From Actinomycetota bacterium (lineage in GTDB: Bacteria; Actinomycetota; CADDZG01; WHSQ01): a DNA stretch of 64,000 bases. A program made the translations under genes and the position numbers. The number at the start of each line of letters is the position of its first letter. Position 1 is the stretch's first letter. This document shows positions 5,957-35,924 of this stretch, piece by piece. The notes under the pieces were generated by a model. It ran no database searches. It worked only from the letters and a program-made list of their open reading frames with translations, and was not told the origin of the DNA. The stretch spans positions 1 through 64,000 of the forward strand of contig WHSV01000007.1 of assembly GCA_009379915.1 (NCBI GenBank), in the 5' to 3' direction.

Positions 5957-6711
5957 CGGCTGTCTCCCAGATAGGCGCGACGCACCTCGATGTCTTCGAC
6001 GATCTCTTCGGGAGTGCCGTCGGCGATGATTCCTCCCTGGTGCATTACGACGATTCGCCGGGCGAAGTTCATCACCAGGTCGACGTCATGCTCAGTCAAA
6101 ACCAAGGTGGTGCCGCCGCGCCGGGCGAGCTCGGACAGCAGCTCGACGGTGGCCTGGCGCTCGGACGTGCCCATACCCGCAGTCGGCTCGTCGAGAAGGA
6201 GCAGGCGGGGCTCGAGGGCGAGGGACATGCCCACCTCGACGCGCCGCCGTGTGCCGTGTGCCAGCTCGTCACAGGCGACGTTCGCGTCGTCCCTCAGGTC
6301 GAGCCTGACGAGCAGCTCCTGTACGCGCTCTAGGCTCTCGCGCTCGCGCTCGAGGCTTTGGGTTGAGACCCCGCTGCGCCCGGTGCGTGCCAGCACCGCG
6401 GTGAGCAGGTTCTGCTGGACGGAGAGACCTGGGAACACGCTCGAGACCTGGAAGGTTCGCACCAGACCCATGCGCGCGACCGCGTGCGGAGTCGCCGTCG
6501 TGATGTCGGTCCCGCGGAACCGGACCCGGCCGCGGTCCGCGCGCATCCGGCGCGTGACGAGGTTGAACAGGGTCGTTTTGCCGGCACCGTTCGGTCCGAT
6601 CACGGCGGTCGTCTCACCCTCGCGGATCGCGAGGTCGACGGCATCGACCGCATAAAGTTCGCCGAAATGCTTGGTCAGCCCGGCGGTCTCCAGCAGGGCG
6701 GGCGACCTCAC
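5953..6711 (-). CDS. livG: branched-chain amino-acid-type ABC transporter ATPase LivG
   Basis: A 252-aa ATPase of the same importer. Walker A is GPNGAGKTT (~38) and Walker B is LLLLDEPTAGMG (~175), with the H-loop in LVLTEHDVDLV. The signature is a degenerate ELAHGTRRRVEVGMSLA, as is common in LivG proteins (usual form LSYGxQRR). The family's C-terminal extension is present (IIADGTPEEIVEDIEVRRAYLG). The GTG start overlaps the livM stop by 4 nt, and its stop overlaps livF. It pairs with LivF to power the LivH/LivM channel at the inner face of the membrane. Confidence 0.93.
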   Translation of the reverse strand: MRSPALLETAGLTKHFGELYAVDAVDLAIREGETTAVIGPNGAGKTTLFNLVTRRMRADRGRVRFRGTDITTATPHAVARMGLVRTFQVSSVFPGLSVQQNLLTAVLARTGRSGVSTQSLERERESLERVQELLVRLDLRDDANVACDELAHGTRRRVEVGMSLALEPRLLLLDEPTAGMGTSERQATVELLSELARRGGTTLVLTEHDVDLVMNFARRIVVMHQGGIIADGTPEEIVEDIEVRRAYLGDSR

Positions 6712-7742
6712 CGGCCGGATCCTCGGACTCGCCGGTAGGTGCGGGTCAGTGTCCCGAGGATGCCTCCGGGGAGGAACAGGACCAGCACCAGCAGGATCAC
6801 GCCCATGACCAGTGGCCAGTACACGGTGCGCCCGGTGACGAGGCTCTCGAGCCAGATGAGGACGCCGGTACCGACGGCCGGGCCGAGAAAGAGCGCCTCG
6901 CCGCCTAGGATCGTGCCGAGCACGACTTCGGCCGATGTTGTCCAGTGAGACATCTGTGGATGCGCGACGCGCAGGAACGGCGCGATCAGCCCGCCGGCGA
7001 GCCCCGCCATCGCGCCGGCGATTACGAAGGCCTTGTACCGGTAGCGTCGCACGGGGATCCCGAGGAAGTCGACCCGCTCGGAGTTCTCTCTGATCGCTCG
7101 CAGGACCTGGCCGAACGGTGACGAGCCGACACGTTCCAGCAGCGCGACCCCCAAGACGACGGTGACCAGCGTCACGAAGTAGAAGACTTGGGGATGTCCC
7201 AGCAAGAGCTCACGCCCGGCTACGGATACGCTCCCGAGCTCGTAGAGATTGAAGCCGTCGCTGCCCCCCGTAACCTCGCGGGCCTGGAATACGACCGTGT
7301 AAACCAGCATGCCGAAGGCCAGCGTCAGCAGGCTGAAATAGATCTCGTTGACGCGCACGCAGAAGACCCCGAACAGCGCGGCGAGTAGGGCGCCTCCAAC
7401 CAAGCCGGCGAGTATCCCGGCGGGTAGGGGGAGCTCAGCCTCGACCATGATGAGCGCAGACGCGTACGCGCCTCCCGCGAAGTACGCGGCATGACCGAAG
7501 CTGAGCAGCCCCGTGTAGCCGAACAGCAGGTTGAACGAGCTGGCGAACAGCCCGAAGATCAGGATCTCCGTCAACAACAGGGTCCGGTAGGAACCGGCGA
7601 CGAAGGGAGCGACCGCCAGTGCGGCGACGAGCAGCAACCATGCCAGCGTCCTCGCCCTCGCCGTCCATTTCTGCCTTCGGCCCTCGAGGCGGACGGGACG
7701 GGTGTCCACCGGCCGAGCTGCGGTCCTCTCTCGTGCCTTCAT
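6708..7742 (-). CDS. livM: branched-chain amino-acid-type ABC transporter permease LivM
   Basis: A 344-aa permease with about 8-9 hydrophobic segments from residue ~30 and the conserved LFGYTGLLSFGHAAYFAGGA block (~75-95). The later SPFGQVLRAIRENSERVDFLG (in two parts: SPFGQVLRAIREN, then SERVDFLG) is the cytoplasmic loop that contacts the ATPases. The start is the ATG at 7742, overlapping the livH stop (ATGA); an open frame upstream of it is antisense or shadow sequence without family similarity. The charged N-terminus (~25 residues, Arg-rich) precedes the first membrane helix. Confidence 0.92.
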   Translation of the reverse strand: MKARERTAARPVDTRPVRLEGRRQKWTARARTLAWLLLVAALAVAPFVAGSYRTLLLTEILIFGLFASSFNLLFGYTGLLSFGHAAYFAGGAYASALIMVEAELPLPAGILAGLVGGALLAALFGVFCVRVNEIYFSLLTLAFGMLVYTVVFQAREVTGGSDGFNLYELGSVSVAGRELLLGHPQVFYFVTLVTVVLGVALLERVGSSPFGQVLRAIRENSERVDFLGIPVRRYRYKAFVIAGAMAGLAGGLIAPFLRVAHPQMSHWTTSAEVVLGTILGGEALFLGPAVGTGVLIWLESLVTGRTVYWPLVMGVILLVLVLFLPGGILGTLTRTYRRVRGSGR

Positions 7743-8617
7743 GTTGTAAGTGCCGGTGAGGGAAAGAGACCCCGGGGCCGGATGAGCAGCACGATCGCCA
7801 TGAGGGCGTAGGCAACGGCCATCTCCGAACGTGGGACCAACAGCGGAGCGAACTCGTTGAGGAGTCCGAGCATGAGTGCACCGGTCAGTGCGCCGGGGAA
7901 GCTTCCGAGCCCTCCGACCACCACCACGATGAACGTGAGGATGATGATGTTCTCGCCCATCGACGGCGTTGCGCTTCTCAGAGGTGCGGCCAGGGTCCCG
8001 CCGAGTCCGGCGAGGAGTGAGCCGAGCGCGAACACGGCGCTGAACAGCACGGGCACGTTGACGCCGAGCGCGGAGGCCATGTGCCTGTCGGTGGAGGCGG
8101 CGCGCACCCGCTGCCCGAAGCTCGTCCGCTCGATGAAATACCACAGCGCGGCGGCGACGAGGGGGCCGAGCACGATGATGAACAATCCGTAGATCGGATA
8201 CTCGCGCCCGAAGATCGAGACCGCGCCACTCAGCAATTCGGGACGGGGCGTCGCCTTGATGCCGGTTCCCCAGATCAACCGAACGAGGTCATCGAGTATG
8301 AGAACGAATGCGAAGGTCATCAGCAACTGGACCGCGATGTCGCGCGCATAGATACGGCGCAGGAACAGCACCTCGATGACGGTTCCGATCACCGCTACCG
8401 CGAGCGGAGCGACGACCAGCGCCACCCCGAACGGTACGTCCCACGCCCCGGCCACTTGAAAGGCCGCGTAGGCACCGACCATGTAGAGCGCGCCGTGTGC
8501 AAAGTTGATGACCCCCAGCACACCGAAGATCAGGTTGAGTCCCACCGAGACTAGAAACAGCAGCATCGCAAACGAAATCGCATTGAGAAGGTGAATGACG
8601 AACGACGACGTGCTCAT
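7739..8617 (-). CDS. livH: branched-chain amino-acid-type ABC transporter permease LivH
   Basis: A 292-aa integral membrane permease, normal LivH length, with about eight hydrophobic helices. Family motifs include GVINFAHGALYMVGAYAAF (~35-53), the TSFGQRVRAASTDRHMASAL ATPase-contact loop (~150) and GGLGSFPGALTGALMLGL (~235). It overlaps livM by 4 nt and livK by 4 nt, so the operon is translationally coupled throughout. Together with LivM it forms the transmembrane channel. Confidence 0.93.
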   Translation of the reverse strand: MSTSSFVIHLLNAISFAMLLFLVSVGLNLIFGVLGVINFAHGALYMVGAYAAFQVAGAWDVPFGVALVVAPLAVAVIGTVIEVLFLRRIYARDIAVQLLMTFAFVLILDDLVRLIWGTGIKATPRPELLSGAVSIFGREYPIYGLFIIVLGPLVAAALWYFIERTSFGQRVRAASTDRHMASALGVNVPVLFSAVFALGSLLAGLGGTLAAPLRSATPSMGENIIILTFIVVVVGGLGSFPGALTGALMLGLLNEFAPLLVPRSEMAVAYALMAIVLLIRPRGLFPSPALTT

Positions 8618-27599: not shown

Positions 27600-28763
27600 T
27601 CAGTGGGTCAGTGCGTTGTAAATCCCGAGCACCTCGCCGGCGATGCTTGACCATTCGAACCGTTTGGAACGGCGCCGCCCCTCGTTGCTCAACCTCTGTG
27701 CAACCTCAGGGTTCCTCAGCAGTCGATTGATGGCACCGGCAAGACTCGCGGTGTCATTGGGCGGAACAAGCGATCCACTGCGGTCATCCTCCACGATCTC
27801 AGGGATGCCGCCGGTATCCGACGCGACGATGGGAAGTCCGGCTCGCATCGCCTCGAGCAACACAGAGCCGAGCTCTTCATAGAGGGACGGCAGCGCGAAG
27901 ACATCGGCATGCGAGAGGTAAGCAGGGATCTCATGGTGCGGAACGAAACCCGTGAGATGCACCCGCCCGCCCAGGCCGGCGTTGGCGATCTCCTGCTCGA
28001 TGATCGGGCGCTCTGGACCGTCGCCGACGATCACGATCTCGGCCCGTTCATCGATCAAGCGCGCGGCGCGGACAAGAGTGAGCGGGTTCTTCTGAGGTGC
28101 AAGTCGACCGACGAACAGAACCCGAGGCCTGCGAAACTCTGGAAGCGGGTCACCACGAACTCCGTCGAAGAGCGAGCCGTTGACGCCGGGGGGAATGACA
28201 TGAACTCGGTCTCCAGTGACGCCTCGGCCTTTTAACAGAGATTGCATACGCGATGTGAGCACGATGACCGCTCCAGCCCGCCTCAGCCCAACCGGTTCGA
28301 TCCGAGTTCCGAGCACCTTCACCACTCGCTGAGACCAATCGGTCGGGACGAACGTGTGAGCAACGCTGCAGTGAAACGTGATAGCCATCGGAACACGCGC
28401 GATGCGCTGCGCCAGAAGACCGAGTGGGATCGTCGCCAGGTCCTCGCCCTGGTGCACGTGGATGAGGTCCACCTGCGGCGCGACCTTCAGGACGTGGCGA
28501 AGCGCGGCGACGCCGTAGAGCTGGCGCCAGCGCCGCACCGGAATCCCGACCCGCCGGACCTCGACGTGGGGTGACCGTTGGAGCGCGGCGACGCCGGGTC
28601 GGTGAGCCGTTATGACCGTCTGACGAACGGCACCGGCCGCCAGGGCGCGCGTCAGTTCCCCGGTGTGGTTCTGCATGCCGCCGATCGCGTCGAACATAGC
28701 CAGCCGATCAAGGTCGATGTGAGAGGGCACCTCGAAAACGGAGCACAATCGCAGAACATGCAT
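27600..28763 (-). CDS. GT4-family glycosyltransferase
   Basis: A 387-aa retaining glycosyltransferase with a GT-B fold. The donor-binding half has RPRVLFVGRLAPQKNPLTLV (~215), HLTGFVPHHEIPAYLSHADV (~280) and the E-x7-E segment LYEELGSVLLEAMRAGLPIV (~310), followed by ASDTGGIPEIVEDDRSG. The acceptor half contains DAIGGMQNHTGELTRALA and DLIHVHQGEDLA. It acts at the cytoplasmic side on a nucleotide-sugar donor. Start ATG 28763 has GTGAAGG upstream; a longer open frame upstream is not family sequence. Separated from the next GT gene by a VOC gene on the other strand. Confidence 0.87.
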   Translation of the reverse strand: MHVLRLCSVFEVPSHIDLDRLAMFDAIGGMQNHTGELTRALAAGAVRQTVITAHRPGVAALQRSPHVEVRRVGIPVRRWRQLYGVAALRHVLKVAPQVDLIHVHQGEDLATIPLGLLAQRIARVPMAITFHCSVAHTFVPTDWSQRVVKVLGTRIEPVGLRRAGAVIVLTSRMQSLLKGRGVTGDRVHVIPPGVNGSLFDGVRGDPLPEFRRPRVLFVGRLAPQKNPLTLVRAARLIDERAEIVIVGDGPERPIIEQEIANAGLGGRVHLTGFVPHHEIPAYLSHADVFALPSLYEELGSVLLEAMRAGLPIVASDTGGIPEIVEDDRSGSLVPPNDTASLAGAINRLLRNPEVAQRLSNEGRRRSKRFEWSSIAGEVLGIYNALTH

Positions 28764-28977
28764 CGCAACCTTCACCTGACCTCTGCGGACACCGGCCTGG
28801 AGACTACCTCCGCCGTGCCCGCAAATCCCCCGCGACTGCGTGCAAGGAATCGAAGAGGCGTTGGCCTCCGAAACGACCGACATGACCGAGCGTCCGGGCA
28901 GATGAGGCGCTTTTCGTCGTCCCGATCGGTGGGAATAGACAGTTCGACGGTGGTCACAACTGAGCTTAGGAGATGGG

Positions 28978-29331
28978 ATGGAAGTCACGGGCCTTTCTTG
29001 GGTTGGCACACGGACCGAGCACTTCGATGAGATGGTTAGATTCCTCGGGGAAGTGTTGGGGATCGAACGAGATGATGAACAGCCTGGGTTTGTCTCGTTC
29101 AAGACGCCGCGCGGAGACAAGGTCGAGGTCTTTGACACGAGTGTCTCCGACCATGACTTCATGACTACTGGCCCTTCGGTGGGCTTTGGCGTCTCGGACA
29201 TTGACGAAGCCCGTTCGGAGCTGGAAGCAGCGGGGATCGAATTCATGGAACCCACTCAGCGAGAGGGCGACTTCCGCTGGGCGCACTTCCGCGGTCCCGA
29301 CGGCAACATCTACGAGATCACCTCGTCGTAG
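28978..29331 (+). CDS. VOC/glyoxalase-fold protein
   Basis: A 117-aa protein with one vicinal-oxygen-chelate domain pair. GLSWVGTRTEHFDEMVRFLG, FVSFKTPRGDKVEVFD, VGFGVSDIDEARSELEAAGI and HFRGPDGNIYEITSS follow the two beta-alpha-beta3 modules. The metal-ligand Glu of the last strand (NIYEI) is present and the His of HFRGPDG is another candidate ligand. Function within the family is open. It starts at an ATG with GGAG nearby and its 3' end overlaps the convergent glycosyltransferase gene by 14 nt. Confidence 0.82.
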   Translation: MEVTGLSWVGTRTEHFDEMVRFLGEVLGIERDDEQPGFVSFKTPRGDKVEVFDTSVSDHDFMTTGPSVGFGVSDIDEARSELEAAGIEFMEPTQREGDFRWAHFRGPDGNIYEITSS

Positions 29332-30379
29332 GTCTCACCAGAGCGCGTAGCTCGGAGAAGAATAGGGCGGCGCTTTCCTCCCACGTAGGAAAGGAGTCGG
29401 CGCGCTCTCTGGCGGAACGCGACATCCGGCTGCGCAGTTGCTCGTCCTCACACAGTTTCCCGAGTGCTGCCGCGAGCCCGGCGAGGTCCCCGGGTTCGAG
29501 AATGAAGCCGTCTCTCTCATTCCTTGCGAGATGGGGGAGGTTACCCGCGTTCCATCCCACCACCGGAAGGCCGGCCGCCATTGCTTCGCCGTAGACCGTC
29601 CCATAGGGCTCCAGCCTGCTCGGCAGAACGAACGCGTCTGCGGCCGCGTACATGAGGGCGACCTGTTCGGAGGTAAGGGGGCCGTGACATACCACCCTTT
29701 CGGTGAGGTCCCCCCGCGCCAGGAGCTCCCTTACCCGCGCTGCATATCGCGAATCGGCGTTCTCGTCGCCCACCAGATGGAGCGTACAGAGCGACTCCGG
29801 AAGGGTAGTGAAGGCGCGCAGAAGTTCCACGATGCCCTTGCGCCCGATCCAGTTGGCGACGCAAAGCAAGGCCGCTTCACGGCCTCGCCTGAGATCGAGC
29901 GCAGACTCCTTCATCATCCCGACGTCTCGGCCGGGCGCCACGACCACGATCTTGGCCGTCTCGATGCCGCATGCCGTTAACTCGTCGACCAAGCTCTCGC
30001 TGGCCACCATGATCCGGTCGCAGCGCCTGTAGGCGACTAGGTCGAGATTGCGCTGAAGCGCACTTCGGACGAAGCCATGGTCGATACCTCCTGGGCGTTG
30101 GTGAACCATTGCCGCGAGCGGGCGAAGCTGATTCCACAGCCATGGAGCGGCGAAAGCTGTGGCAATGCTGTCCAGAACCACGACATCGGGGCGCTGTCGA
30201 CGAAGGTGGCGCGACACTGTGCGTCCGGCGAGAGCCGGCAATGGAAAGGCTCGCTCCGGGAAAGAGACGAAGGACACTGACGCTTCGTGGGCGGCCGCAA
30301 CCTCCGCCATGCGGCGGTGGTAGAGGTAACCGCCCGTGAGCGTAGCGGGATCACCGAGGGTGACGAGAGAGATGCGCAT
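29318..30379 (-). CDS. GT4-family glycosyltransferase
   Basis: A 353-aa GT-B glycosyltransferase. N-terminal MRISLVTLGDPATLTGGYLY is the acceptor-binding start; the C-terminal half has LLCVANWIGRKGIVELLRAF (~178), VVCHGPLTSEQVALMYAAAD and the donor-site EPYGTVYGEAMAAGLPVVGW (~265) with the E-x7-E residues. No membrane helix. Its ATG shares two bases with the ATG of the divergent glycosyltransferase gene at 30378, so the pair has no intergenic space. Probable role is in decorating a metabolite or glycolipid made by the neighbouring genes; this is inference. Confidence 0.87.
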   Translation of the reverse strand: MRISLVTLGDPATLTGGYLYHRRMAEVAAAHEASVSFVSFPERAFPLPALAGRTVSRHLRRQRPDVVVLDSIATAFAAPWLWNQLRPLAAMVHQRPGGIDHGFVRSALQRNLDLVAYRRCDRIMVASESLVDELTACGIETAKIVVVAPGRDVGMMKESALDLRRGREAALLCVANWIGRKGIVELLRAFTTLPESLCTLHLVGDENADSRYAARVRELLARGDLTERVVCHGPLTSEQVALMYAAADAFVLPSRLEPYGTVYGEAMAAGLPVVGWNAGNLPHLARNERDGFILEPGDLAGLAAALGKLCEDEQLRSRMSRSARERADSFPTWEESAALFFSELRALVRPTTR

Positions 30380-31475
30380 GAGGGTGACTCACTTGGTCCC
30401 GACGATGTTCGGAGACGATGGGCTCTTCGGCGGCGGTGAGCGCTATCCCCTCGAGCTGGCGAGGACTCTCTCGCGCCACGTCGACTGCCGGTTGGTCACG
30501 TTCGGCTCCAATCGGCGAACGATTATCGATCCATCCGGCCTCGAGATAGTCATCTTGAGGCGGCTGGCTGAGGCGCGAGGGCATATCGCTCAGCCGATCG
30601 CTACGGGGATTGCCCGCGCCACTCGTCAAGCCGACCTCGTTCACGTTCACCAAATGAGGAGCGCTCCGGCCCGGATCATGGCGCTCGTCGGGGCGATTCG
30701 CCGACAGCCCGTCGTGGTGACGGATCACGGGCTGGGAGGCGGTGGCTGGATGGGGCTTCTCCCTCGTTTGTTCAGTGCCTTCCTCACCGTCTCTCGCTAT
30801 TCGGCCGAGACTTTGCGAGCACCCGAGTTCAAGTCGTGGGTGATCTACGGGGGCGCGGATCCGAATCTCTTCAGCCCGAGCATAGGAGCACGCTCGGGCC
30901 TTCTCTTTGTCGGGCGGATCACTCCGCACAAGGGCATCGAGCGGCTCATACACGCCCTCCCCGATGATTTGCCCCTCGAGGTCGTGGGAACGACCGGGCA
31001 CGACCGGCAACCCCACGAGCGTGAGTATCCTGCCTTGTTGCGCCGGCTCTCGGAGGGCAAGCGGGTCAAGTTCTCCGGCCGGGTCGATGACGATCAGTTG
31101 CCCGAGCTGTACCGGCGCGCCCATGCCCTCGTCCTGCCCTCGGTCCACGACACCTGTTACGGAAGGAAGGTCGGGATCTCCGAGCTCCTGGGGCTCTCGG
31201 CGATCGAGGCGATGGCCTCGGGGACTCCCGTCATCTGCAGCCGGGTCGGCGGTCTGCCGGAAGTGGTGATCGACGGGCAGACGGGCTTCGTGGTCGAACC
31301 GGGCGACATACGAGGCCTGAGGAGCGCGATCGAGAGAATCGTTGGGGTTCCTGCGTGCGCCGAAAGGATGGGCCGAGCGGCTCGGGAGCGCGTCCTGAGT
31401 CATTTCACTTGGGAGGCATGCGCCCAACGCTGTCTCGCAGCCTACGAGTCGGTATTGGGCGGGGGGGCCGCGTAG
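30378..31475 (+). CDS. GT4-family glycosyltransferase
   Basis: A 365-aa GT-B protein (two residues longer if the ATG at 30372 is used). MRVTHLVPTMFGDDGLFGGG and GERYPLELARTLSRH form the acceptor side, LLFVGRITPHKGIERLIHAL (~175) and VKFSGRVDDDQLPELYRRAH the donor side, and GLSAIEAMASGTPVICSRVG the E-x7-E region. It is transcribed away from the GT4 gene at 29318 and runs 34 nt into the convergent pterin-synthase gene. Both overlaps suggest a compact, coevolved cluster. Confidence 0.87.
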   Translation: MRVTHLVPTMFGDDGLFGGGERYPLELARTLSRHVDCRLVTFGSNRRTIIDPSGLEIVILRRLAEARGHIAQPIATGIARATRQADLVHVHQMRSAPARIMALVGAIRRQPVVVTDHGLGGGGWMGLLPRLFSAFLTVSRYSAETLRAPEFKSWVIYGGADPNLFSPSIGARSGLLFVGRITPHKGIERLIHALPDDLPLEVVGTTGHDRQPHEREYPALLRRLSEGKRVKFSGRVDDDQLPELYRRAHALVLPSVHDTCYGRKVGISELLGLSAIEAMASGTPVICSRVGGLPEVVIDGQTGFVVEPGDIRGLRSAIERIVGVPACAERMGRAARERVLSHFTWEACAQRCLAAYESVLGGGAA

Positions 31476-31837
31476 CCCCCAAAGGCGACGGGCGATTCCC
31501 AGACCCGAACCGACAGCATCTCGACCTCGCCGGCAGTCAGCCTGTGAGCCACCTCGTCGTGACTCCATCGAGCGAGCACCTCGACGGTGACGGCCTCCTC
31601 TTCGGGCGGGCGCATTACCTCGAGGTTCTTTCCCTCCACGATCTTCACCGTGTCGCGCAGGGCCTGCTCCAGATCGTCGAGATCGCACACCATTCCACGG
31701 GTGTCGAGGTGACCGCGCGAGGCTACGACTTCCAGCCGGTAGTCGTGCTCGTGGAGCTCGCCCTCGGGTCCCTTTACGCCGGGCATGACGTGCCAGGCCT
31801 TGAAGGTGGTGGACAACCCGACTTCGAACACGCTCAC
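31442..31837 (-). CDS. 6-pyruvoyl-tetrahydropterin synthase/QueD-family protein, catalytic Cys replaced by Glu
   Basis: A 131-aa T-fold protein. His16 (FKAWHVMPG), His29 and His31 (ELHEHDYRLEV) match the zinc triad, and the C-terminal RVWESPVAFGGY carries the substrate-anchoring Glu. In QueD-type enzymes a Cys lies four residues before the first His of HxH; here that position is Glu25. A Cys-to-Glu change is known from PTPS-III-type enzymes that cleave dihydroneopterin derivatives differently, so chemistry other than QueD's is likely. It overlaps the MDR gene by 4 nt, and the cluster supplies a GTP cyclohydrolase II, not I, so the substrate is uncertain. Confidence 0.8.
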   Translation of the reverse strand: MSVFEVGLSTTFKAWHVMPGVKGPEGELHEHDYRLEVVASRGHLDTRGMVCDLDDLEQALRDTVKIVEGKNLEVMRPPEEEAVTVEVLARWSHDEVAHRLTAGEVEMLSVRVWESPVAFGGYAAPPPNTDS

Positions 31838-32832
31838 ACCTCCTGGTAGCCGATTGCTGCGTGGATCAAGCCGTCACTTGGAGAATCCACCGCGCTAAAC
31901 GCGGTCGAGACCTGCGACAACGGGAACTCGTGAGTGGCCAGTCGTTGCAACGGAAGCTCTCTCATGAGGTTTAGAGCCGTTTCCAGGCGGCGTTTCCTCG
32001 TCCACGCGGGGGTAAGCCGTGCCGGAATGGTCGATACCTGCGTGCTCCTAAGCGTCAAGCGGCGGCGATGGAAGGCCGCTCCGAGCGGCAGAGACACCGG
32101 TTTGGTTCCAAACCAAGATGCCACCAGGACCATGCCCTCGTGCGCCGTCAGCTCGAGAACGGCGGAGAGGGCGGCGGGACTGCCACTGGCCTCGACGACG
32201 AGGGGCACACCTCGTCCTTCGGTTAGATCGGCGACCTGTGCCGGCAGCTCCGCAGGGTCGACGCTCGAAACCGAGAACGACTCGGCAACATCTCTACGCC
32301 AGGGAAGAGGATCCGATCCGAGTACGGCCGCGCCGGCTAGACCCAGCAAGGCTCCCGCGAGGATGCCGACGGCTCCCAATCCGAGGACGACCACCTGCTG
32401 GTGTGCGACGGGGCCCGCGTCGAGCGAGATTTGAAGGGCTGTTTCGACAAGGGGCAGCAACGTGGCGAGGCGCGGCTCGAGGCCCTCCACCTCGATTATT
32501 TCGGTTCCCTCGGCTACAACGTGCGCTTGATGTGGGTGGAAACAGAACACCGTGGATCCCGGGCTGAGAAAGCAGCTCGATTCCTCGATCCTTCCGACGA
32601 CGCTGTAGCCGTACCGAAAGGGCCATGAGAAGGTCCCAGAGAGAGCACCGAGGGTCTCGTCCAGGGGCAAGGCGGGATCGATTTCACCGCGGTAGGCCAG
32701 CATTTCCGTCCCACCAGAGATTCCAGAGTAAAGAGTGCGTACCAACGCTTGTCCCTCGGTCGGAGAGGTGAGCTCGATGTCGATCAGCTCCACCGTCCTG
32801 GGGGCGCTGAACTGGACCGCAGTTGTTAGCAC
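31834..32832 (-). CDS. MDR-superfamily oxidoreductase lacking the zinc-ligand Cys
   Basis: A 332-aa medium-chain dehydrogenase/reductase. The Rossmann motif is VVLGLGAVGILAGALLGLAG (~147), and VVEASGSPAALSAVLELTAH follows. The usual catalytic-zinc segment C-G-(T/S)-D is replaced by SGISGGTEMLAY, and no structural-zinc Cys cluster is present, so it is probably a zinc-independent reductase of the BchC/QOR-like kind. It is co-translated with the pterin-synthase homologue downstream and divergent from the RibA-RibD gene (72 nt between), which places it in the same pathway. Confidence 0.8.
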   Translation of the reverse strand: MLTTAVQFSAPRTVELIDIELTSPTEGQALVRTLYSGISGGTEMLAYRGEIDPALPLDETLGALSGTFSWPFRYGYSVVGRIEESSCFLSPGSTVFCFHPHQAHVVAEGTEIIEVEGLEPRLATLLPLVETALQISLDAGPVAHQQVVVLGLGAVGILAGALLGLAGAAVLGSDPLPWRRDVAESFSVSSVDPAELPAQVADLTEGRGVPLVVEASGSPAALSAVLELTAHEGMVLVASWFGTKPVSLPLGAAFHRRRLTLRSTQVSTIPARLTPAWTRKRRLETALNLMRELPLQRLATHEFPLSQVSTAFSAVDSPSDGLIHAAIGYQEV

Positions 32833-32904
32833 CTCTCGAACCTAACCGACGCCTGAACCGGAAATAGTTTCAAGCTTTATGGTGGCGGGAAAGCGAGGCG
32901 TGTG

Positions 32905-34284
32905 ATGGTCAACGAAGAAGCGCGTGTTCCCCTGCCCACTCCCTTCGGACCCTTTGTTGCTCGAGCATTTGAGTGCGCATCGGGAAACGTTTACCTAGCC
33001 ATGACGAAGGGACGTTTGGACATCGGGCCCATCCTCACGCGCGTTCATTCGGAGTGCCTGACGGGCGATGTCTTCGGTTCCCTCCGGTGCGACTGTGGTG
33101 TCCAGCTCCGGGAAGCACTAAGGGGCATCGCCGCCGAAGGTAGGGGCGTGCTCATATACGCGACCGGCCACGAGGGACGCGGCATTGGCCTGGTAAACAA
33201 GTTGCGCTCTTACATGGATCAGGATCAGGGCTCGGACACCGTCGATGCCAATCTCCACTTGGGACTGCCGGTCGACGGGCGCAGCTACGAGGATGCCGCC
33301 GGCGTGCTTGCGGCGTTGGGGGTCGGAAGCATCAAGCTGATGACCAACAACCCCGAGAAGGTAGCGGCGTTGGGGCGCCACGGGATCATCGTCGACGAGG
33401 TTCAACCCTTGACGGTGGCTCCTCACACTCGCAACTCCGCCTACCTGAGCACGAAGCGCAACCGACTCGGTCACAACGGCTCACTCGTTTCTCCGCCGAC
33501 AGTCGATACGACTCCGGTTGATGTCCGTAAACTGCTCGGCCCCGTTAGACCGAGGCACGACAGACCCTACGTTGTCGTCAAGTATGCGCAGAGTCTCGAT
33601 GGGCGCATAGCGACGTCGACGGGAGACTCTCAATGGATCAGTTCGGAGGCGGAGCGCATGGTGTCTCACTCGATGCGAGCGCATTGCGACGCCGTCATGG
33701 CCGGCATCGGGACTGTCATAAACGACGATCCCCAGTTGACCGTTCGGCTTGTGCCCGGATCGTCCCCGATCCGAGTCGTCCTGGATTCGACGCTGCGTCT
33801 CTCAGCCGAGGCGAAGGTCGTTTCTGAGGAGGGCGCCACCATTGTCATAACCACGGACCGCTCGGAGATACAAAGACGTCGAGAGTTGATGACGAAGGGC
33901 GCTGAAATAGCAGTCCTCGCCCAGAGAGATGGGTTGGTGGATTTGGGCGAGGCGCTGGGCTATCTCCGAAGACGAGGGATCGAATCGTTGTTGGTCGAGG
34001 GCGGAGCGAAGGTGATCACTTCATTTCTCGGATCCCGCGGGCTGGCCGATCGCTTGGTCGTATCGATCGCGCCCAGAGTTATGGGGTTGGGAACCGAGGC
34101 GGTTGGTGACCTGGGCATCTCCGAAGTGTCTTCGAGTCTTGTCTTGAGCGACCCCATCGTTCACTTGGTCGGCCGGGATGTCGTGCTGGGGGCCGATCTC
34201 AGGGATAGGTCCGAGGGTGGCGCCGGCGGGACATTGCTGTTGGAGGAACAGAATGAGCGTCTGCCCGACACGACATCTGGTTGA
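32905..34284 (+). CDS. GTP cyclohydrolase II-RibD reductase-domain fusion
   Basis: A 459-aa fusion. Residues ~1-195 are GCH II: zinc Cys in HSECLTGD...LRCDCG (Cys51, Cys62, Cys64), EGRGIGLVNKLRSYMDQDQG with the Tyr that in E. coli RibA (Tyr105) completes formyl removal, and the Arg of VDGRSYED. Residues ~215-435 are a RibD C-terminal reductase: VVKYAQSLDGRIATSTGDSQ, WISSEAERMVSHSMRAHCDA, AGIGTVINDDPQL, LLVEGGAKVITSFL. RibB and the RibD deaminase domain are absent. Expected product: 2,5-diamino-6-ribitylamino-pyrimidinone phosphate without deamination. Start ATG 32905 has GAGG 6 nt upstream. Confidence 0.88.
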   Translation: MVNEEARVPLPTPFGPFVARAFECASGNVYLAMTKGRLDIGPILTRVHSECLTGDVFGSLRCDCGVQLREALRGIAAEGRGVLIYATGHEGRGIGLVNKLRSYMDQDQGSDTVDANLHLGLPVDGRSYEDAAGVLAALGVGSIKLMTNNPEKVAALGRHGIIVDEVQPLTVAPHTRNSAYLSTKRNRLGHNGSLVSPPTVDTTPVDVRKLLGPVRPRHDRPYVVVKYAQSLDGRIATSTGDSQWISSEAERMVSHSMRAHCDAVMAGIGTVINDDPQLTVRLVPGSSPIRVVLDSTLRLSAEAKVVSEEGATIVITTDRSEIQRRRELMTKGAEIAVLAQRDGLVDLGEALGYLRRRGIESLLVEGGAKVITSFLGSRGLADRLVVSIAPRVMGLGTEAVGDLGISEVSSSLVLSDPIVHLVGRDVVLGADLRDRSEGGAGGTLLLEEQNERLPDTTSG

Positions 34285-34665: not shown

Positions 34666-35031
34666 TCACACCGAGCTTCCCTCAAGGGTGAGCCCTGCCT
34701 CCACCCAATCGAGCAACCCGCCCCCGTAACGGCGAACATTGCAATAGCAGTGCTCGACCAGCGCCCGGTAAAGGGCAACGCTGGAGAGACAGTCGACGTT
34801 CGAGCAATAGACGATGATCTCGTCATTTTTCTGGAGCGATGAATAGAGATCGTCCGGATCGTCGAAATGTAGCGAGCCCGGTATGTGCTTCGCGTCGAAG
34901 GCCCATCGATTGAGGGCCATCACCAGCTTGACGGGTTCGCCACTGTCGAGCTTGGTTATCAGCTCCTCCCGGTCGTTAGTCACGACCGGCTCCTGGCCAA
35001 GCATCGCGTAAGGATGCGGTTGATCGCTCAC
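34666..35031 (-). CDS. rhodanese-like domain protein
   Basis: A 121-aa single rhodanese domain. The active-site loop is IIVYCSNVDCLSSVALYRAL, with Cys of YCSN as the probable persulphide-carrying residue, and KHIPGSLHFDDPDDL is the usual substrate-side motif. The loop lacks the CRxGxR arginines of thiosulphate sulphurtransferases, so a different sulphur acceptor or a regulatory role is likely. It overlaps the LLM oxidoreductase gene by 4 nt and is the last gene of a three-gene operon. Confidence 0.8.
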   Translation of the reverse strand: MSDQPHPYAMLGQEPVVTNDREELITKLDSGEPVKLVMALNRWAFDAKHIPGSLHFDDPDDLYSSLQKNDEIIVYCSNVDCLSSVALYRALVEHCYCNVRRYGGGLLDWVEAGLTLEGSSV

Positions 35032-35924
35032 GGCACGCGATGCCTCGCCACAGCGCCACGAACCTCGGGCGCTACCTCCTCGGCAAAGCGTCGAAGCTGC
35101 GTAGTGGGTTCCGCCGCCGGCCAGAAGATGAATGCGTCCATCCCCAACTCGACCGCCAGACGAGTGAGCTGATCGGCCCAGTACGAGGCGGGACCCTCCA
35201 GGAATCCCCCGCGGTCGCCATCGGTGATCGTCCCCGAGACGTTGTAGATGCGGCGAACCTCACTCGGTTTACGCCCGGCGGACTCCGCAGCTGCATCGAT
35301 GCGGTCGTGCAGTTCCGGAAGCCGCTCGGGCGGCATGAAGCCGGACGACGGGATCCAGCCGTCGGCCAGGCGTCCGATCAGATTCAGCATGCGCGGGCCG
35401 GCGGCGCCGATCCAGATACCGATGTCATGGGCCGGGATGGGCCCGGAATGAACACCCTTCAGACGATAGTGGCGGCCCTCGAAGCGCAGGTTTCTCTCGC
35501 CACTCCACAGGAGACGGATTACTTCGATCGCCTCGGCCAGCGAGTCGACCGCTTCTCGGCGCTTTCTGCGAGGGCCACCCATACCCTCGATCGCGTCCCA
35601 GAAGCTCCCCGCACCGAGGCCGAGCTCGAACCGGCCGCCGCTGATCCTGTCGATCGACGCCGCCGCCTTGGCCATGACCGACGGGTGCCGCAGTGGAAGA
35701 TTGGCGACATCGGGAAAGAACCGCACGCGCTGAGTGCGCGCCGCGAGATCGGAGATGAGCGAGAACGTGTCGAAGAAGCGCCGCTGGTAGGGGTGGTCCT
35801 GAATGCCGATGAGGTCCAGACCTGTCTCATCCGCGATCCGAGTTTGCTCAACGATGGTTGGGTAGTCATCCGCGTTCGGTGCGGGGAAGTATCCGAACTC
35901 GACGTCCCGGCGGTAGTCCATCAA
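35028..35924 (-). CDS. LLM-class flavin/F420-dependent oxidoreductase
   Basis: A 298-aa TIM-barrel luciferase-like oxidoreductase. VEFGYFPAPNADDYPTIVEQ, GLDLIGIQDHPYQRRFFDT, RISGGRFELGLGAGSFWDAI and IGIWIGAAGPRMLNLIGRLA are typical, and the pattern fits the F420-dependent reductases common in actinobacteria more than bacterial luciferase. It overlaps both neighbouring genes by 4 nt (DUF5519 upstream, rhodanese downstream), so the three are produced together. Substrate not identifiable. Confidence 0.85.
   Translation of the reverse strand: MMDYRRDVEFGYFPAPNADDYPTIVEQTRIADETGLDLIGIQDHPYQRRFFDTFSLISDLAARTQRVRFFPDVANLPLRHPSVMAKAAASIDRISGGRFELGLGAGSFWDAIEGMGGPRRKRREAVDSLAEAIEVIRLLWSGERNLRFEGRHYRLKGVHSGPIPAHDIGIWIGAAGPRMLNLIGRLADGWIPSSGFMPPERLPELHDRIDAAAESAGRKPSEVRRIYNVSGTITDGDRGGFLEGPASYWADQLTRLAVELGMDAFIFWPAAEPTTQLRRFAEEVAPEVRGAVARHRVP

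Follow-up and report, generated by a model that had tools for sequence, protein, structure and literature searches.

Why would a bacterium with a complete riboflavin operon carry further riboflavin-type enzymes, fused into one protein, next to a 6-pyruvoyltetrahydropterin synthase (PTPS)-like protein, a dehydrogenase, and glycosyltransferases? This question is raised by five genes located between positions 29318 and 34284 of the window, the 64,000-nucleotide stretch of DNA from an Actinomycetota bacterium that we analyzed (GenBank assembly GCA_009379915.1, contig WHSV01000007.1, positions 1 to 64,000). They encode a fusion of GTP cyclohydrolase II (GCH II, RibA) with the reductase domain of RibD (RibD_C), the PTPS-like protein, a medium-chain dehydrogenase/reductase (MDR), and two glycosyltransferases of family GT4 (GT4-A and GT4-B). 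We tentatively propose, with a confidence somewhat short of even, that they form a dedicated cluster drawing GTP from riboflavin and folate toward a glycosylated ribitylaminopyrimidine or pterin. The core of this proposal, namely the first two steps described below together with a non-riboflavin glycoside as the product, is probable.

The open reading frames and Pfam domains of the five genes matched the preliminary description of this locus. The RibA-RibD_C fusion (32902 to 34284, plus strand, 460 aa) consists of a GCH II domain (32920 to 33402, residues 7 to 167; PF00925, 6.3e-56) and a RibD_C reductase domain (33565 to 34125, residues 222 to 408; PF01872, 2e-48); Pfam detected no deaminase domain in it, as had been claimed. 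A divergent intergenic region of 69 bases (32833 to 32901), presumed to hold both promoters and in which a promoter scan found no sigma-70 consensus, separates the fusion from the MDR gene (31834 to 32832, minus strand, 332 aa; PF00107, 4.8e-14). The latter overlaps by exactly 4 bases the gene of the PTPS-like T-fold protein (31442 to 31837, minus strand, 131 aa; PF01242, 2.6e-21), which in turn overlaps GT4-B (30378 to 31475, plus strand) tail to tail by exactly 34 bases, both overlaps being as first described. GT4-A (29318 to 30379, minus strand) completes the cluster.

We then looked for this arrangement in other genomes. Of 61 related genomes, exactly the same 6 contained the PTPS orthologue and the fusion in its full length, a co-occurrence that random placement would produce once in 5.6e7 if phylogeny is ignored. 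The two genes were adjacent in all 6 of these genomes, and the flanking genes differed among them. A wider survey, in which 84,980 species genomes were scanned with an MDR alignment, yielded 25 actinomycetotal loci (49 to 59% MDR identity), nearly all of which also had the fusion, PTPS, and GT4. The survey further returned more divergent loci, found in Chloroflexota, Rubrobacter, haloarchaea, deltaproteobacteria, and Spirochaetales; most of these retained MDR, PTPS, and GT4, and many also had RibD_C and/or a GTP cyclohydrolase. The raw locus and tree counts are slightly high, contigs L079 and L187 being identical, as are L082 and L188 and four pairs of housekeeping RibA. Groups of overlapping antisense reading frames at cluster loci were artefacts and were dropped.

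The same genome contains a complete riboflavin operon on another contig (C46), with a deaminase-containing RibD, RibE, RibBA, and RibH, and GCH I on contig C11. Neither riboflavin synthase, lumazine synthase, nor a deaminase was found beside the cluster. The RibA-RibD_C fusion is therefore not the housekeeping copy, and a housekeeping riboflavin gene was ruled out as its identity. The view in the preliminary description that the locus is not simply riboflavin biosynthesis, based on the lack of both synthases nearby, is thus backed by the separate operon, where both are encoded, and by the conserved neighborhood. Neither of the two findings that it named as grounds for rejection, a genome with no other ribA or ribD and a neighborhood without conservation, was obtained.

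We analyzed the residues of the GCH II domain. It keeps the zinc ligands Cys54, Cys65, and Cys67 as well as Arg49, Glu92, Arg94, Asp126, Arg128, and Lys154, and Tyr104 is indeed the equivalent of E. coli Tyr105. Tyr is found at this position in every GCH II compared, whether from a cluster or housekeeping, except in two Streptomyces plasmid copies. In the tree, the GCH II domains of the fusions group into a clade of their own, and among the residues checked, their sole clade-wide change is the replacement of Arg90, with Thr at this position in nearly all members and Ala, Asn, or Ser in the others; roughly half of the housekeeping copies retain Arg90. In the window fusion, its equivalent is Thr88 (33163 to 33165). 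The GCH II domain is predicted, with good support, to turn GTP into 2,5-diamino-6-ribosylaminopyrimidinone 5'-phosphate (DAROPP) as the first step of the pathway.

Other members of the family appear to reach this compound with different enzymes. Several haloarchaeal clusters carry GCH III (Pfam GCH_III; "GTP cyclohydrolase IIa" in annotated plasmids), which yields the formylated intermediate FAPy (Graham 2002, as cited in PMC8305020), and a creatininase gene is nearby in two haloarchaeal clusters. The two Streptomyces plasmids encode a GCH II in which Met takes the place of Tyr105, with a divergently oriented creatininase gene next to it (L146, 12756 to 14249; L189, 12558 to 14071). The creatininase family includes ArfB, the known or predicted archaeal FAPy deformylase, and SCO6655, a Streptomyces coelicolor GCH II homologue with Met, is said to stop at FAPy (Met/Tyr switch). 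The Streptomyces pair is probably a FAPy-forming GCH II with its deformylase. Given these reported activities of ArfB and SCO6655, GCH II with Tyr, GCH III, and Met-type GCH II with creatininase would be three routes that all meet at DAROPP.

The preliminary description had predicted 2,5-diamino-6-ribitylaminopyrimidinone phosphate as the product of the fusion. The three exchangeable routes to DAROPP support this prediction for the family, as do the reductases. The choice of the deaminated substrate, AROPP, by BsRibG has been ascribed to Lys151, and the T35K mutation in RIB7 swaps the preference (PMC3631187). When the fusion clade is set aside, 37 of the 39 remaining cluster reductases have Ser, His, Thr, Ala, or Cys rather than the AROPP-selecting Lys. 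The cluster RibD_C sequences also fall outside the bacterial RibD clade (FastTree, 0.972; ultrafast bootstrap, 99), in unrooted trees with only two archaeal reference reductases, placed between the cluster and bacterial groups. For the window protein itself the prediction is uncertain, as its Lys227 occupies the Lys151 position. In the second step, RibD_C would use NADPH to reduce DAROPP to the ribitylamino compound, with no deamination, which is supported for the family; as the product of the window reductase, ribityl-diaminopyrimidinone is our best guess and not a result. Archaeal riboflavin biosynthesis reduces DAROPP directly to the ribityl compound, whereas bacteria deaminate first (PMC3631187). 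That archaea already make the ribityl compound would explain why haloarchaeal cluster loci are without RibD_C and bacterial ones have their own reductase.

The PTPS-like protein has Glu25 (codon at 31763 to 31765, minus strand; motif PEGELHEHDY) where E. coli QueD has its catalytic Cys27, and our alignment to QueD bore out the early observation on this point. It keeps the zinc-binding His16, His29, and His31 and the pterin-anchoring Glu110 (= Glu114). Across the cluster loci, the zinc ligands His16, His31, and His33 (QueD numbering) and Glu110 are retained almost everywhere, and the Asp70/His71 dyad of QueD is lost, as in the window. The Cys27 position is occupied by Glu in all 26 distinct fusion-clade proteins and by Glu or Ala in the other loci. 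Glu-type and Ala-type proteins form separate clades, the window protein lying in a separate Glu-type clade that is sister to a haloarchaeal one. Its AlphaFold model (pLDDT, 94.9) gave the highest TM-score, 0.85, with PDB entry 3d7j (SCO6650), which the PTPS profile likewise matched best in the PDB (1.2e-17).

In the MDR, alignments showed the catalytic zinc Cys, correctly reported as missing, to be replaced by Ser39 and the His-Glu pair by Tyr-Ser in a "GYS" motif. The AlphaFold model (pLDDT, 95.1) matches the fold of threonine, butanediol, sorbitol, and arabinitol dehydrogenases. We propose that this zinc-less MDR oxidizes the ribityl chain at C2', turning the hydroxyl there into a ketone (step 3), which would give the same 1-deoxy-ribulosylamine that GTP cyclohydrolase I (GCH I) reaches through an Amadori shift. 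The 5-amino group could then close on the ketone, aided by the zinc T-fold PTPS-like protein (step 4), to form 7,8-dihydroneopterin monophosphate or a related compound. The PTPS-like protein retains the Glu by which PTPS holds the 2-amino-4-oxo ring, and its Glu25 may be the base for the closure or for a later side-chain step. We regard ring closure to a pterin by these two steps as rather doubtful.

One or two GT4 enzymes would finally add sugar (step 5), as the conserved GT4 genes suggest. GT4-A (353 aa; PF00534, 9.6e-28) is a retaining glycosyltransferase with the EX7E motif EPYGTVYGE and is the glycosyltransferase of the conserved core: its orthologues (46 to 58% identity) occupy the same place in five relatives, and most of the wider loci have a GTA-type glycosyltransferase gene. 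GT4-B (about 365 aa from its conserved start; PF00534, 6.6e-33) occurs in roughly every second actinomycetotal locus. Its reading frame was listed from 30336, and comparison with the homologues in relatives placed the start at 30378, so that the divergent start codons of the two genes overlap by two bases in a shared CATG (30377 to 30380), a refinement of the head-to-head arrangement already described. The same CATG was found in 9 of 14 other loci with divergent GT4 genes (L051, L052, L053, L063, L064, L069, L072, L080, and L081), which implies that the promoter or ribosome site of each GT4 gene lies inside the other gene or that the mRNAs are leaderless. At one locus without GT4-B (L055), an EryCIII/UDPGT-type glycosyltransferase gene (6503 to 7780, minus strand) is located beside the cluster and possibly replaces the second glycosyltransferase.

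The neighbors of the cluster differ between lineages. FolB (dihydroneopterin aldolase) adjoins RibD_C in 19 loci (L056, L057, L091 to L094, L096, L098, L103, L106, L109, L114, L117, L118, L127, L128, L130, L139, and L142), which fits a pterin product. FolB was found in 19 of 31 distinct loci with Ala-type PTPS and in none of 44 with Glu-type PTPS, counts not corrected for phylogeny; since the two types form separate clades, the association may reflect one or two events and is a lead only. A PlsC-like acyltransferase gene lies beside FolB and RibD_C in Rubrobacter-type loci (L056, L057, L092, L094, L103, L109, L128, and similar ones). Near five other fusion-clade loci (L066, L073, L078, L083, and L084), we found a CDP-alcohol phosphatidyltransferase, in some cases with a methyltransferase and an LPG-synthase-type membrane protein (LPG-TM). 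These genes suggest a membrane-linked product in such lineages, which may be methylated and lipid anchored. Neither they nor creatininase were detected in the window by tblastn. There, rhodanese-like and luciferase-like monooxygenase genes with a four-base overlap (34666 to 35924, minus strand) adjoin the fusion, and they were not found as a pair at other cluster loci. A third GT4 gene (27600 to 28775, minus strand; PF00534, 3.7e-45) is not conserved with the cluster.

Put together, these steps would make up a GCH I-independent pterin route, in which GCH II opens and deformylates GTP and the Amadori rearrangement is replaced by reduction of C1' by a RibD-type reductase and reoxidation of C2' by a polyol dehydrogenase without zinc, followed by PTPS-like closure, glycosylation, and, in some lineages, a lipid tie. 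As a whole, we consider this route unlikely. Several observations weigh against the proposed cluster function. Lys stands at the Lys151 position in 21 of the 26 distinct fusion-clade reductases, including that of the window, yet these proteins have no deaminase. SCO6650 reportedly contains no zinc, and one of the zinc His residues is missing from its Streptomyces relatives, so that the PTPS-like protein may be noncatalytic in some clusters. PTPS was not detectable at two fusion-type loci that are complete in other respects (L063, 5005 to 6989; L064, 4980 to 6964), with about 2 kb of other sequence between the fusion and MDR genes, and no GCH II domain was detectable at L082 (same contig as L188). 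GCH I or FolE2 occurs in all 33 cluster-bearing genomes checked; none of them thus depends on the cluster as a sole source of pterins, and replacement of GCH I for folate was rejected. Finally, no sequence feature names the sugar or its acceptor.

In an alternative scheme, the pathway would end at the pyrimidine. After reduction of DAROPP to the ribitylamino form, the MDR would oxidize a different hydroxyl of the ribityl chain, the PTPS-like protein would bind or isomerize the product, and the GT4 enzymes would attach sugar to the ribityl chain, with no pterin ring being formed. The same gene evidence fits this scheme, as do the loss of the catalytic Cys, Asp, and His of PTPS in all loci and the GCH I or FolE2 already present in the genomes checked. 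However, nearly all loci other than those of Streptomyces retain the zinc ligands and the pterin-anchoring Glu, and FolB adjoins 19 loci. Although doubtful in its own right, a glycosylated ribitylaminopyrimidine as the endpoint is nearly as likely as the pterin scheme.

An improbable explanation is that the cluster is an additional source of 5-amino-6-ribitylaminouracil for the synthesis of riboflavin or F420, in which case the housekeeping deaminase would act after GCH II and before the fused reductase. Lys227 is an AROPP-type residue (PMC3631187), the PTPS-IV subfamily has been called F420 related in an unpublished remark (PMC5041015), and a luciferase-like protein adjoins the cluster. Yet a complete rib operon is found elsewhere in the genome, most cluster reductases outside the fusion clade are without Lys, no role for MDR, PTPS, or GT4 is known in either pathway, and the haloarchaeal and Streptomyces versions reach DAROPP through other enzymes.

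It is very improbable that the PTPS-like protein is a QueD (queuosine), PTPS-II (biopterin), or PTPS-III (folate) enzyme with incidental neighbors, even though databases name its relatives "6-carboxytetrahydropterin synthase." Its motif, ExxxHEH, is not CxxxHGH, CxxxxxHGH, or ExxHGH, the latter being that of PTPS-III (PMC5041015), it scores 39 bits against a cut-off of 89 for NCBIfam QueD, and its link to MDR and GT4 holds across phyla. The only queuosine-type match in the genome was a 26-bit, QueC-like one in a 455-aa frame, QueE and QueF being outside the search. We rejected a role in queuosine on the PTPS motif and, weakly, on genome content, and the PTPS-III folate bypass because the Glu is at a different position. 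The least probable of the explanations is a chance placement of polysaccharide-type glycosyltransferase genes next to a duplicated rib gene. GT4 genes are abundant in general, and a third one is nearby, but this explanation is refuted by a set and order of genes kept in relatives with unrelated flanks, by a core found across phyla, and by the lack of conservation of the third GT4 gene.

We finally compared the cluster proposed here with known systems. The fusion has the same domains and catalytic residues as the riboflavin enzymes RibA and RibD and the archaeal and fungal DAROPP reductases (ArfC/RIB7), but it is fused, deaminase free, placed in its own clades, without RibE or RibH, and additional to a complete rib operon; a DAROPP reductase of the archaeal or fungal type would be expected to have no Lys at the BsRibG Lys151 position, where the window protein has Lys227. 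The PTPS-like protein differs from PTPS-I/QueD (CxxxHGH) by having Glu25 at the Cys position. With PTPS-III, the Plasmodium PTPS of the folate bypass (PMC2229834), it shares a Glu in place of the active-site Cys and a zinc T-fold, but this Glu is at position -4 of the HxH motif, like the QueD Cys, and not at -3, where the window protein has Gly; moreover, HEH replaces HGH, and the gene is linked to GCH II instead of folate genes. The MDR shares the fold of zinc-binding polyol and threonine dehydrogenases but not their catalytic zinc ligands, and BchC, its best NCBIfam match, scored 84.6 bits, far under the cut-off of 291 bits.

The closest published neighborhood is that of PTPS-IV, a subfamily of COG0720 (cluster-node 62, 561 sequences, signature FGPAQ) reported next to PF00925 and PF01872 in the part of PMC5445326 consulted, which makes no mention of MDR or GT4. 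The window protein shares these two neighbors but carries GPEGE in place of the FGPAQ signature and falls in the separate Glu-type clade. On the cluster as such, we found nothing beyond PMC5445326 and PMC5041015 in a literature search that covered few subscription papers. From these sources and from the SCO6650 structure (3d7j), the link of PTPS to PF00925 and PF01872 was already known and the neighborhood was functionally orphan. To judge from our searches, the new elements are the fusion itself, a Glu-type PTPS that keeps its zinc ligands, a second GT4, the three exchangeable GTP-opening systems, and the family-wide comparison.

S. coelicolor itself has a PTPS homologue, SCO6650, and the GCH II homologue SCO6655, a type represented in our survey by the plasmid clusters of S. 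fungicidicus (p1) and S. globisporus. As in the window, the core is MDR-PTPS-GT4 with a GTP cyclohydrolase, and its function is likewise orphan. The Streptomyces clusters have Met-type GCH II and creatininase as separate genes, a PTPS with the FGPAQ motif and one zinc His lost, and an extra CDP-alcohol phosphatidyltransferase, methyltransferase, and membrane protein, whereas the window has Tyr-type GCH II fused to RibD_C, a Glu-type PTPS with its zinc ligands (26% identity to the Streptomyces protein), and a second GT4. If the pterin scheme held, the family would represent a second chemical solution for making pterins from GTP, and many "6-carboxytetrahydropterin synthase" (queuosine) entries in databases would need correcting. 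SCO6650 and SCO6655 have for many years had a crystal structure and an assay but no pathway. Our comparison would join them to one that extends into haloarchaea and has a named early intermediate in common, the window holding a compact five-gene version, with GCH II and the reductase in one protein.

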